From a bacterium (GTDB lineage: Bacteria > Elusimicrobiota > Elusimicrobia > UBA1565 > UBA9628): DNA of 64,000 nt. The stretch spans positions 310,001-374,000 of the forward strand of contig JAKAQO010000001.1 of assembly GCA_021822495.1 (NCBI GenBank), in the 5' to 3' direction. A program made the position numbers and the translations under genes. Positions 4,001 to 53,130 of the stretch are shown here, piece by piece; position 1 is the first letter of the stretch; every line of letters starts with the position of its first letter. The notes beneath the pieces were generated by a model. It saw only the letters and a program-made list of their open reading frames with translations, was not told where the DNA came from and ran no database searches.

Positions 4001-4093
4001 AGGACCTCAAAGCCTCCCTTAAATTTTCGCGTCTCAAACAAAAGTATAACAACTCTTCCCCTGAAATCAATGACAAATTTGTTACGCCCGCCT

Positions 4094-4160
4094 ATGCCTT
4101 TCCCTCATAATCATACGGGCGGCATTGTCCCAACCTTATGGTTATTGAGGAACGGGACTA
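4094..4160 (+). repeat. Dispersed two-hairpin element, copy A
   Basis: Related copies lie at 43448-43515 and 9996-10067. It begins ATGCCTTT and contains two short inverted repeats: ATGCC (4094-4098) with GGCAT (4121-4125), then GTCCC (4127-4131) with GGGAC (4154-4158). It lies in the divergent gap between the GYF gene and the peptide-binding-protein gene, 17 bp before the latter's ATG. It is probably not coding, because copies A and B differ by a 1-bp length change between the conserved blocks. Confidence 0.6.
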
Positions 4161-9973: not shown

Positions 9974-9995
9974 AACGCCCCCTTTAACCCTTCTC

Positions 9996-10067
9996 ATGCC
10001 TTTTCCAATCAATCGTAAGGACGGCATTGCCCCAACCATAAGCGCCCTGTCGCGAAAGAAGGGGCTA
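9996..10067 (+). repeat. Dispersed two-hairpin element, copy C (diverged)
   Basis: Related to the elements at 4094 and 43448. ATGCC (9996-10000) pairs with GGCAT (10023-10027), followed by GCCCC (10029-10033) with GGGGC (10061-10065). The second stem differs from the other copies at one pair (T-A became C-G), preserving pairing, while the loop sequence is quite different. It lies in the divergent gap between the reductase gene (minus) and the acyl-CoA synthetase gene (plus). Confidence 0.55.
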
Positions 10068-10085
10068 ATAAGTAAAATATTTAAA

Positions 10086-11642
10086 ATGGGACTTATACAT
10101 CAAGCGAAAAATAACGACCCCGTCGAGACTCTTCAAGAGCTTCTCAAACGCAGAGCCCAAGAAGCTCCGGGGAAGCCCTTTCTTTTCTTTAAAGACCAAA
10201 TTTGGAGCAGACAAGAATTGGATATCGCCTCAAGCATCTTGGCCCAGGAAATCAAGGACCTTGGCGTCAAAGCCCAAGACCGCGTCGCCCTCATTGTTCC
10301 CAATGGACCGGAATTCATCCTTCATTTCTTTGGAATCCTCAAGGCGGGAGCTCTCGTCGTTCCGGTCAACACCGCACTCAAAGAAGAAGAGATTTCTTTT
10401 ATTCTCAAAGACTCAGGCGCGGTCTGCGCCTTCACGGGGCCGTCTCATGAGAAAAGCCTCAAATCCTTGACTGACCGCATCCCTTCCCTCAAAACCATTC
10501 AAGCTCTCCCTTTGGGGGAAGACAAAAATTTCTGGCTCAAAAAGGGGACAGTCCCCTTTATTGAGGAAAAGGGGACTGTCCCCTTTTCGGCGAGCCTCAT
10601 CTACACCTCGGGAACGACCGGTTTCCCCAAAGGCGCCGAACTCACACATCGCAACTATCTGTTTGACGTGCAGAAATTCGTCGAAGCGACTCAAATGAAT
10701 GAGTCCGACCGGTTTTTATGTTTTCTGCCCCTTTTTCACGTCAACGCCCAAGTCGTCACTCTTTTATCCCCCCTCTATTGCGGCGGCGCCATGGTCTTGA
10801 TGGAAAAATTCGCGCCCAAGGAATTTTTTGAAACCCTCTCCTCAAAAAAAGCGACCTCCTTTAGCGGGGTTCCGTCCGTCTATTCCGTGCTTTTAGGCGT
10901 TCCGGATTCCGCTAATTACGATTTATCCTCTCTTCGGTTTTGCATCTGCGGAGCGGCCCCGATGCCGGTTGAGATTTTTGAGCGCTTTGAAAAAAAATTC
11001 AACGCCTACATCCTCGAGGGATATGGACTCTCGGAAGGAACCTGCGTTTCTTCCATCAACCCGCCGCCCCCGCAAAAAAGAAAAATCGGTTCCATCGGCC
11101 TTGCGCTCAAAGATCAGAATATGAAAATTTTGGATTCCGCAGGAACAGAACTTCCACGCGGGGAGATTGGCGAAATCGCGATTCAAGGCGAAAACGTCAT
11201 GAAAGGCTATTGGAATAATTCCTCCGCAACCTCGCAAACCATTAGAGATGGTTGGCTCTACACCGGCGATTTAGGCTATCAAGACGCGAACGGATTTTTC
11301 TTTATCGCGGGGCGTTCAAAAGAAATGATTATCCGCGGCGGAGAAAACATCTACCCCAAGGAAGTGGAAGAGTCCCTCTATCGCCATCCCGCCATTTTGG
11401 AAGCGGCCGTGATTGGACTCCCGGATCAGCGTTGGGGCGAAGAAGTGGCGGCCTTTTTGGTTTTAAAAGAAGGTCAAAGTTTAACCGCCAAGGATGTTCG
11501 CCTATTTCTCAAAGACAAAATCGCCGATTATAAAATCCCGCGGCAAATCGAGATTCTTTCTTCCTTGCCTAAAACGGCGACCGGAAAAATCCAAAAGCTA
11601 AAGCTCAAAAAAGAAATTTGCGAAAGGGAGGGACTCCGATAA
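10086..11642 (+). CDS. Acyl-CoA synthetase (AMP-forming, ANL superfamily)
   Basis: Activates a carboxylic acid, probably a fatty acid, to its CoA thioester through an acyl-adenylate. The 518-residue protein has the P-loop IYTSGTTGFPKG (about 172-183), the YGLSEGT motif (about 317), the YTGDLGY Asp motif (about 399), the hinge IIRGGENIYPKE, and the C-terminal catalytic lysine in KTATGKIQK. The ATG at 10086 gives the normal family N-terminus. Oddly, residues about 152-167 (KKGTVPFIEEKGTVPF), directly before the P-loop, are encoded by a pair of REP-like palindromes. The next gene, a G3P-dehydrogenase-like flavoprotein, overlaps its end, suggesting a lipid/glycerol theme. The exact acid cannot be told from sequence. 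Confidence 0.92.
   Translation: MGLIHQAKNNDPVETLQELLKRRAQEAPGKPFLFFKDQIWSRQELDIASSILAQEIKDLGVKAQDRVALIVPNGPEFILHFFGILKAGALVVPVNTALKEEEISFILKDSGAVCAFTGPSHEKSLKSLTDRIPSLKTIQALPLGEDKNFWLKKGTVPFIEEKGTVPFSASLIYTSGTTGFPKGAELTHRNYLFDVQKFVEATQMNESDRFLCFLPLFHVNAQVVTLLSPLYCGGAMVLMEKFAPKEFFETLSSKKATSFSGVPSVYSVLLGVPDSANYDLSSLRFCICGAAPMPVEIFERFEKKFNAYILEGYGLSEGTCVSSINPPPPQKRKIGSIGLALKDQNMKILDSAGTELPRGEIGEIAIQGENVMKGYWNNSSATSQTIRDGWLYTGDLGYQDANGFFFIAGRSKEMIIRGGENIYPKEVEESLYRHPAILEAAVIGLPDQRWGEEVAAFLVLKEGQSLTAKDVRLFLKDKIADYKIPRQIEILSSLPKTATGKIQKLKLKKEICEREGLR
10539..10587. repeat. Pair of REP-like palindromes inside a coding region
   Basis: AAAGGGGACAGTCCCCTTT (10541-10559) is followed after 7 bp by AAAAGGGGACTGTCCCCTTT (10567-10586). 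The central trinucleotides are complementary, so the pair is inverted, like a bacterial REP doublet. Both halves are read in frame as KKGTVPF and EKGTVPF in the acyl-CoA synthetase. Confidence 0.85.
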
Positions 11643-21340: not shown

Positions 21341-21362
21341 AAAAAAAGGGACAGTCCCCTTA
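21341..21362. repeat. REP-like palindrome beside tRNA-Val
   Basis: An A-run followed by GGGACAGTCCCC and TT, one base short of the full GGGGACAGTCCCC core. It lies between the tRNA and the PH-domain membrane protein gene and is a member of the family seen at 10539, 22048 and 44573. Confidence 0.75.
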
Positions 21363-22045: not shown

Positions 22046-23995
22046 CTAAAAAGGGGACAGTCCCCTTTTTTTAATCGCCTCCAGCGTTCTATTGGAAACT
22101 CCCCTAAAACTTTCAGCTATCGCCTGGGCCGCCTGGGCCGATTGTCTCTGCCGCTCTGGATCATTCAACAAAAGAGTCAGACAACCCGCCAAAGCGTCCG
22201 CATCTTGAACTTTAAAGCCCGCTCCTTTTGAGATAAGTCTCTCGGCCAATTCCAAACTTGAATCAATCGAGGGCCCAAAAGCCAGAGGACTTCCCTCCAA
22301 AGCCGGCTCAATCAAGCTGTGTCCCCCTAAGGAAATCAAGGTACCGCCGATAAAAGTCAAGAGAGCCCCCTGGTAAAAGCCGGAGAGAAGCCCCAGGCGG
22401 TCCAAGACCAGGCAAGCGATATCCTGAGAAACCGCATTCTCCAACTCTGAATAAAAAACGTAAGAAATCCCTTTTTGATTAAGAAGCCCCGCCAGTTCCC
22501 GCGCGCGCTCGACGTGACGCGGGGCCATCACGAGTTTTAAGTTCAAAAGAGAAGCGCGCACTCGGACAAAAGACTCAAGGAGTATCTCTTCTTCTTTCAA
22601 ATGGGTGCTGGCCGCCACCCAAAAAGGCGCGTTTTCCCAACGAAGATTTTGAAACGCCTCTTTCGCTTCAGTTCTGGCGGGCGAAGAAACGCGGTCATAT
22701 TTTAAGTTTCCCGCGACGAAAATTTTACCGGGGTCCACTCCCAGAATTTTAAACCGCTCGGCGTCTCTCTCGGTCTGGGCCGCAATCAATGATATCCGCC
22801 TTAAAAAAGGCCGCGCAAGAAAAGAAAACTTTTGGTAGCGAGAAAAACTTCTCTCGCTTAAAGCCGCGCTGACTAAAATGACGGGAATGTCTCGCGAAAA
22901 AGACAGGGCGATTAAATGCGGCCACAATTCCGTCTCAACCACGATCAAGGCTTTGGGGCTAATTCGGTTTAAAGTTCTTCTCACCGCCGGAAAAAAGTCC
23001 AGGGGAGACATAAAAGCAAAATCAGAAAAATCTAATTTTTGGGCGCGAGTTTTTCCCTGAGCGTTAGTAGAACTTAAACCCACCGCGTATTCCGGGTACC
23101 GGGCCTTAATGAGGCGTATCAAGGGCTCAACCGCCGAAACCTCGCCGGCCGAAGCGGCGTGAACCCAAAGGACGCGCCGACCGGAGGCCTTGACGTTTTC
23201 GGGCAAGCGCAGAAAACCCAGGCGCTCCTTGATTTCATCTTGAAGCCCCCAAAGGACGCGCCTTCGGCTGGAGAATAAAAACTTAAGGACAAAAAACAAA
23301 GACAGGGGAAAGGCGAGAATATTTTCAAGAAAAAGAACCAGCCGCGCAATCCAGGGGCCGGATGAACTCTGAACCCAGTCTGAAGCCTTAAGACTTGTCT
23401 TTGAGAGCTCCTCGGCTAATTCTTTGGCCTTTAAGTCTAAATCATCGTCAGGCCCCACCTCAACCGGTTTTCCGTAAGCCACGGCGGCGCGCCCAAAGGG
23501 AAGCGGAACCTGATATCCGTCCCAGCTTTTTTTAAGGACGATTTTACGGGAAAGAAAATTCGCCGTCGGCAAAATAGGAACGCCCAATTTTTGCGCGAGA
23601 AAAACCGCCCCGCGCTTGACCTCTTCTTTCGGGCCCTTGGGGCCGTCGGGAGTAATTCCCAAATTCCAGCCCTCAGCGGTCAAGCGCATCATTTCTTTGA
23701 GGGCCGCGGAAGCGTTTCTGGAGGAAGAACCGCGAGAAGCGCGAATTTTGGAGAGACTCATGACTTTGGCGATCATCTCCCCGTCGCGACTGAGGCTGAC
23801 CAAGACCGAAAGATTATCTCCGCGGTGACTGGTCGTAAAAAACATCTGCTGGCTGTGCCAGAAAGCGTAAACAAAACGCCGGTTTTGAGCGCGCAAAGAC
23901 GCCCTTTTTTCTTCGCCCAGGACTTTAAGGCTTGTCGTCCACTTGACGAGAGTGAGATAAAGATAAGCCAAATACGGCGCCAGCCGCCGCAGCAA
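22046..23995 (-). CDS. kdtA: Fusion of DUF374 acyltransferase and Kdo transferase
   Basis: One chain carries two lipid A-linked functions. Residues about 20-190 are a DUF374/LPLAT-type acyltransferase-like domain (YAFWHSQQM, SLSRDGEMIA, ITPDGPKGP). Residues about 230-645 are KdtA/WaaA, which transfers Kdo from CMP-Kdo to lipid A precursor. KdtA motifs present are HAASAGEVSAVEPLI, VVETELWPHLIAL, VMAPRHVERA and GGHSLIEPALEGSP. I place the start at TTG 23995 (GGAG upstream, two bases after the previous stop); the ATG at 24085 would overlap the previous gene by 89 bp. The last codons and the TAG come from a REP palindrome (ending RGLSPF). It is the last gene of the yajC-secDF operon and acts at the inner membrane. 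Confidence 0.9.
   Translation of the reverse strand: MLRRLAPYLAYLYLTLVKWTTSLKVLGEEKRASLRAQNRRFVYAFWHSQQMFFTTSHRGDNLSVLVSLSRDGEMIAKVMSLSKIRASRGSSSRNASAALKEMMRLTAEGWNLGITPDGPKGPKEEVKRGAVFLAQKLGVPILPTANFLSRKIVLKKSWDGYQVPLPFGRAAVAYGKPVEVGPDDDLDLKAKELAEELSKTSLKASDWVQSSSGPWIARLVLFLENILAFPLSLFFVLKFLFSSRRRVLWGLQDEIKERLGFLRLPENVKASGRRVLWVHAASAGEVSAVEPLIRLIKARYPEYAVGLSSTNAQGKTRAQKLDFSDFAFMSPLDFFPAVRRTLNRISPKALIVVETELWPHLIALSFSRDIPVILVSAALSERSFSRYQKFSFLARPFLRRISLIAAQTERDAERFKILGVDPGKIFVAGNLKYDRVSSPARTEAKEAFQNLRWENAPFWVAASTHLKEEEILLESFVRVRASLLNLKLVMAPRHVERARELAGLLNQKGISYVFYSELENAVSQDIACLVLDRLGLLSGFYQGALLTFIGGTLISLGGHSLIEPALEGSPLAFGPSIDSSLELAERLISKGAGFKVQDADALAGCLTLLLNDPERQRQSAQAAQAIAESFRGVSNRTLEAIKKRGLSPF
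22048..22070. repeat. REP-like palindrome forming the end of kdtA
   Basis: AAAAAGGGGACAGTCCCC followed by TTTTT, a perfect inverted repeat around the central trinucleotide. The kdtA reading frame enters it and stops at TAG on its far side. It could fold as a stem followed by T residues in the kdtA transcript, so a terminator role is possible. Confidence 0.85.
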
Positions 23996-43412: not shown

Positions 43413-43447
43413 ACTCTCATTGTATAAAAGTTCAAAAATTATTTACT

Positions 43448-43515
43448 ATGCCTTTTCCTTATAATTCTTATAGACGGCATTGTCCCGACCTTATGGTTAT
43501 TGAGGAACGGGACTA
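43448..43515 (+). repeat. Dispersed two-hairpin element, copy B
   Basis: Nearly identical to copy A from GGCATTGTCCC to GGGACTA. ATGCC (43448-43452) pairs with GGCAT (43476-43480), and GTCCC (43482-43486) with GGGAC (43509-43513). It lies between the divergent TRAP operon and the EXORDIUM-like gene. An extended -10-like TGTTAGAAT follows at 43534-43542. Confidence 0.6.
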
Positions 43516-44573: not shown

Positions 44574-44594
44574 AAAAGGGGACTGTCCCCTTTT
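44573..44594. repeat. REP-like palindrome between convergent genes
   Basis: AAAAAAGGGGACTGTCCCC followed by TTTTA. Central trinucleotide CTG, so it is in the opposite sense to the copies at 21341 and 22048. It overlaps the ends of both convergent genes (EXORDIUM-like and large TPR protein). The A- and T-flanked stem could serve as a bidirectional terminator. Confidence 0.85.
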
Positions 44595-53105: not shown

Positions 53106-53130
53106 GGAAATGGGGACAGTCCCCATTTCC
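53106..53130. repeat. REP-like palindrome after the caspase-like gene
   Basis: GGAAATGGGGACAGTCCCC followed by ATTTCC, a perfect 11-bp inverted repeat around a 3-bp centre. Same GGAAAT-flanked subtype as the copy at 52264, so the caspase-domain segment is bracketed by two members of one subtype. Confidence 0.85.

Follow-up and report, generated by a model that had tools for sequence, protein, structure and literature searches.

A dispersed two-hairpin element with covarying stems is probably a non-autonomous mobile DNA in two sister species of a bacterial genus

The nearest known kind of repeat to the element described here is the REPIN/BIME, a doublet of REP sequences moved by a Y1 transposase. 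Both are short inverted doublets, dispersed, mostly extragenic and found in tandem clusters, and both have two alternative folds, compensatory changes and CT at their edges. REPINs are inverted doublets whose fold can be a single long hairpin or a clover of two hairpins, and they show compensatory changes (PMC3116915); those TnpA-REP proteins that have been characterised cleave at C|T (PMC8266576), and E. coli without a RAYT still keeps REPINs, in lower numbers (PMC8049555). Unlike a REPIN/BIME, our element has no GTAG (or CGTC) tag, carries direct repeats at the insertion site, has a long hairpin without covariation, and occurs in numbers independent of a Y1 gene. The TIR repeats of TIRYT genes, which carry a GGGGWSAS motif (PMC3733652), share with it the GTCCC/GGGAC stem and the junction GGGAC-T-GTCCC, and such repeats lie at a TIRYT-like gene in L052; the TIR here nevertheless consists of one 19-bp palindrome, whose numbers follow the Y1 gene, whereas those of the 64-70 bp two-hairpin element do not. 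Bacterial MITEs (ERIC, RUP, NEMIS) are likewise non-coding, dispersed, made of inverted halves and flanked by direct repeats, but our element is smaller, its internal stems covary, and a parent insertion sequence was not found in the stretches read. Mitochondrial double-hairpin elements are small mobile two-hairpin units with variable loops and no known enzyme of their own; they share the build of our element, although they belong to organelle genomes and we claim no sequence relation. Finally, the palindromic elements of the Rickettsia type insert in frame into proteins; here, a few copies lie in open frames.

The window (the whole stretch of 64,000 nucleotides analysed) contains three copies, all on the plus strand. 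The focal one occupies 4092-4160 with its flanking direct repeats (86.0 bits with our covariance model), and consists of a left CTA (4092-4094), a core TGCC...GGGA (4095-4157) and a right CTA (4158-4160). Its first hairpin (4094-4125; stem ATGCC 4094-4098 / GGCAT 4121-4125) and its second (4127-4158; stem GTCCC 4127-4131 / GGGAC 4154-4158) are separated by an unpaired T at 4126. The first-pass annotation had placed an element at 4094-4160; there is one, but the element proper, with its CTA repeats, is slightly longer. Direct reading and script location of the stems bore out all three copies that it had named. The second lies at 9994-10067 (55.5 bits; stem 1 ATGCC 9996-10000 / GGCAT 10023-10027, stem 2 GCCCC 10029-10033 / GGGGC 10061-10065), and the third, with a CTA repeat at each end, at 43446-43515 (92.7 bits; stem 1 ATGCC 43448-43452 / GGCAT 43476-43480, stem 2 GTCCC 43482-43486 / GGGAC 43509-43513). 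The combined stem motif, found three times on the plus strand of the window, was absent from both strands of 100 window shuffles. The replacement of a T-A pair by C-G in the second stem of the 9994-10067 copy, which the first-pass annotation had pointed out, is real; the second loop of this copy is wholly different, as had been claimed, while the first differs only in part.

That these copies are mobile DNA we consider almost certain. In three congeners (G001, G002 and G004), none of the three window sites holds the element. The focal site is GTTACGCCCG-CTATATTC in these genomes and GTTACGCCCGC-CTATGCC...GGGA-CTATATTC in the window; in shorter form, ACGCCCG-CTATATTC versus ACGCCCGC-CTA-element-CTA-TATTC. 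The empty counterparts of the 9994-10067 and 43446-43515 copies read TTC|TAATAAG and C|TAGAC, and empty sites hold a single copy of the target. Further sites differ reciprocally between the home genome (G000) and its sister species (G003), the element being present in one and absent in the other. Copies have inserted into new sites after the species of the genus diverged, beside CT(N)A or CTG. The suggestion of a miniature transposable element, originally made as one of two options, is supported by these empty orthologous sites, by flanking direct repeats, by tandem copies and by a patchy distribution within one genus. The G003 orthologue of window position 4092 (L157) carries a different insert of some 160 bp at the very target used by the focal copy, which points to a hot spot. 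In L055, at about 923-1023, a shared element copy is accompanied by a separate insertion of roughly 100 bp that has long inverted arms.

A matching direct repeat of 3-4 bp abuts the core in 65 of 83 copies, compared with a mean of 29.6 and a maximum of 41 in 5000 reshufflings that ignore the relatedness of copies. The repeat is spelled CTA in 29, CTG in 17, CTAA in 11 and CTCA in 2, with CTGA, CTTA, CCA, CGA, CCG and TTA seen once each; CT stands at both edges of most copies, and those with CTG look like one subfamily. When CTA/CTA pairs are excluded, the flanks still match in 36 of 54 copies, versus 13.3 (maximum 24) after reshuffling. Read from sequence, matching flanks are likely to reflect target duplication. 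The copy at 9994-10067, however, has CTCA on its left (9993-9996), but CTAA both on its right (10065-10068) and in the relatives, a pattern that cutting at C|T without duplication would explain just as well or better; such cutting could account in part for matching flanks generally, and target duplication is therefore a likely step, not a certain one.

The element was found 26 times in the home genome by BLAST and a comparable number of times in G003; it had no match in the remaining genomes sampled, three other species of the genus among them. A covariance model was then built from 44 copies and searched for further members against the home genome and its relatives; this enlarged the family to at least 53 copies in G000 and 31 in G003, among the copies examined, with none in G001, G002 or G004. 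High-scoring members are found in just these two of 294 genomes of the phylum. An exact-core scan of 85,000 genomes matched the sister MAG JAJZCM01 in nine stretches and gave two further single matches, in Bacteroidales and Butyrivibrio, which are probably due to chance; plasmids and viral contigs had no match. Elements measure 64-70 bp, with a core of about 60-68 bp formed by two adjacent hairpin units, TGCC-loop-GGCA and TCCC-loop-GGGA, with one T between them; each has a 5-bp stem, foot base included. There are also head-to-tail tandem arrays in G003 (G003:C74), with a period of 66 and CTA shared between units, and two longer copies in G000 (L029, 2990-3100; L032, 2880-3020) that have two extra hairpins between the halves, CGGCG/CGCCG and TGCCTGCGG/CCGCAGGCA.

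Selection for pairing had been proposed on the basis of one change in three copies, and the proposal holds for 44, and then for 77 distinct copies. Across the 44 sequences, 97.7% of stem cells are paired, against 95.4% with reshuffled partners, and double-sided changes occur at 6 of the 10 pairs (0 of 500 shuffles). RNAalifold, run unguided, predicts stem 2 alone, with compensatory change in four of its five pairs. Among the 77 distinct copies, pairing with the own partner exceeded all 5000 reshufflings for each short stem, in shuffles that ignore the relatedness of copies. The double-sided variants include GCCCC/GGGGC, GTTCC/GGAAC, GTCTC/GAGAC, ATCCC/GGGAT, ATACC/GGTAT and GCGCC/GGCGC. A pairing constraint on both short stems is supported. 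As a single strand, the consensus favours instead a long hairpin that joins both loops, because the loops are inverted near-copies, and 42 of the 77 copies fold in this way, with inverted halves. Loop 1 is no more complementary to the loop 2 of its own copy than to a reshuffled one (equalled or exceeded in 1538 of 2000 shuffles; 77 copies, relatedness ignored). The long hairpin, with own-loop pairing at the reshuffled level, is not kept by selection. We would interpret the complementarity of the loops as a trace of ancestry, and the short stems as the functional part.

The majority of copies lie between genes or at their ends, many of them directly beside a stop or start codon, and some lie inside open reading frames. 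Among copies outside open reading frames with both neighbours called, simple ORF calls place 18 between divergent genes, 43 between genes of the same direction (23 and 20) and 5 between convergent genes, so that the divergent setting described for the window, true of all three copies there, is not a rule for the family. Annotated genes near several of the copies and arrays are ordinary and varied; no transposase gene was found among 20 proteins scanned near clusters and arrays. Ten copies lie between closely coupled genes, including bamA/ompH and a site just upstream of lpxA in G003 (loci with copies between translationally coupled genes: L103, L117, L101, L109, L114, L115, L099, L118 and L104), and these insertions, set between the coupled genes of an essential operon, illustrate how repeats of this sort can be tolerated. 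In all ten, a frame of 22-23 codons stays open through the element (form MP..N.K.GI.PS.K), and most of the copies place a ribosome-binding (Shine-Dalgarno)-like GGAGAGGGAC ahead of the next start codon. Away from coupled-gene sites the frame is often lost, which looks like site-specific selection at coupled genes and not like a conserved peptide. A conserved peptide was rejected, since the reading frame shifts with loop length; the first-pass annotation had argued the same from a 1-bp length difference, and the same core indeed reads GIVP or RHCP depending on the loop.

Stem covariation would fit a cis-acting RNA (a leader or terminator) copied and kept for gene regulation, the other option originally raised, and so would the position of most copies in intergenic space or at gene ends and the subfamily in which GGAGAGGGAC directly precedes the next start codon. 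Yet copies occur in all gene arrangements and beside varied genes, some within open reading frames, the same loci are empty in three congeners, and searches with Rfam covariance models, at both thresholds, returned nothing relevant. Moreover, the element strand has 24 G.T pairs versus 18 A.C mismatches over the 77 copies; the counts are about equal, and thus neither strand is favoured for folding. (An early wobble count on fewer copies had hinted at an RNA strand preference, which vanished on 77 copies.) We regard a regulatory RNA as very improbable; as far as can be seen, the element is an unusual mobile repeat and not an RNA switch. Among mobile DNAs, a MITE derived from a DDE-type insertion sequence, with the inverted halves as terminal inverted repeats and a DDE transposase making the 3-4 bp duplication, would account for the flanking direct repeats (65 of 83 copies) and for the imperfect inverted relation of the halves. 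The covariation of the stems, unlike the target duplication, would be left unexplained by such a transposase: terminal inverted repeats give no reason to expect compensatory change between the outer end of the element and its middle, and in distant elements of similar build, described below, the halves are not inverted copies and both hairpins still pair. No full-length parent insertion sequence with the element ends was found among the stretches read, and we find this origin rather unlikely.

A stronger competitor is an element of REPIN/BIME type moved by a RAYT/TIRYT (HUH Y1) transposase, such as G000:C11:85009, through single-strand cutting at C|T. This protein scores above the NCBIfam threshold for REP-associated tyrosine transposases (82.4 versus 80 bits). 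On either side of its gene stand GTCCC...GGGAC hairpins that have CAG/CTG feet and loops unlike those of the element, an arrangement of the TIRYT type (PMC3733652); many CTG-type copies are centred in AAAAGGGGACTG|TCCCCTTTT palindromes, i.e., the flanking repeats of the Y1 gene (AAAAGGGGACTGTCCCCTTTT); and both the C|T cutting of TnpA-REP and the choice of REPINs between two folds match features of the element. Gene and element nevertheless fail to correspond in either direction, which weakens the Y1 transposase as a simple driver: G003 (97% complete, draft) has many elements and no Y1 match, G048 (98% complete) has elements of the same architecture and again no Y1 match, and G002 has the Y1 gene and no elements. 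What does track the gene is the simple palindrome, with 111 sites in G000 (counted at up to 2 mismatches) and 55 in G002 versus 12-18 in three genomes lacking the gene. In addition, the copies listed have no consistent GTAG at either foot, their flanks being CTA, CTG, CTNA and related sequences; the long hairpin is not maintained; and direct repeats of 3-4 bp are present, whereas Y1 transposition is not known to leave a target duplication. Since these genomes are drafts and REPINs can outlast their transposase, we keep the Y1 reading as a serious possibility, albeit one held at well under even chance. The Y1 gene's own palindrome, GGGGACAGTCCCC, is 19 bp long and fits the GGGGWSAS motif, which the two-hairpin element does not. 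Further palindromes of the Y1 type (GGGGACWGTCCCC) are found in the window at 21344-21362, 22050-22068, 44575-44593 and 53109-53127. Within an acyl-CoA synthetase gene, two AAAGGGGACAGTCCCCTTT palindromes occupy 10541-10586 in frame, where KKGTVPFIEEKGTVPF directly precedes the YTSGTTG motif; the orthologues in three congeners do not have that sequence there.

Our favoured explanation, which as a whole we hold to be probable, is that the focal feature belongs to a non-autonomous family of miniature mobile DNA, with its stems as the proposed recognition feature for an enzyme encoded elsewhere. With somewhat greater confidence, we take the stems to act at the DNA level rather than the RNA level, whereas for recognition of the hairpin by a transposase in trans we see the chances as evenly balanced. 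The short stems would form in single-stranded DNA or in an extruded cruciform and serve as the recognition feature for this enzyme, which would cut at the CT-containing edge and join the element to a similar target; the loops would drift freely. The two half-units probably derive from an inverted duplication, which would explain why the loops are still partly complementary, but the long hairpin is not maintained. Insertions would survive mainly in intergenic gaps, at stop/start junctions or in frame. We observed no replication-strand bias (25/53 and 19/31, from 2-8 kb GC skew, a crude local proxy), which counts against this proposal, because a single-stranded DNA mechanism might have shown one. 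The compensatory changes indicate that selection can act on nothing but pairing in a mobile repeat, and the two alternative folds can here be distinguished from sequence. The clean separation of the element from the Y1 palindromes in the same genomes raises the question of how small hairpin repeats move without the usual enzyme. Similar families could escape sequence-based repeat searches, because pairing alone is common to their members.

In other families of the class, weak matches to the model are strings of two to four hairpins with other stems, such as (GTCCC..GGGAC)T(GTACC..GGTAC), (GCACC..GGTGC)A(GTCCC..GGGAC) and (ATCCC..GGGAT)A(GTCCC..GGGAC). In these distant elements neither half is an inverted copy of the other, and still both hairpins are paired. 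Having been found with a model that rewards pairing, they are not an independent proof of covariation, although their stem letters differ from the model consensus. Tentatively, and with considerable doubt, all may belong to a structure-defined class of miniature mobile DNA: strings of hairpins of about 30 nt with interchangeable 5-bp stems, one unpaired base apart, in which an enzyme would read the folded stem and duplicate a CT-containing target of 3-4 bp, independently of Y1 transposases, the spelling of the stems varying by lineage within one bacterial class. One array of four hairpins splits a tRNA-Pro-like fragment (GTGCTCTG[array]CTGCCGTTGAG), with CTG on each side of the array, where the intact tRNA has CTG once. 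Hairpin arrays lie beside tRNA-Pro and tRNA-Ser genes in L126 and L121, inside partial duplicates of the tRNA sequence.
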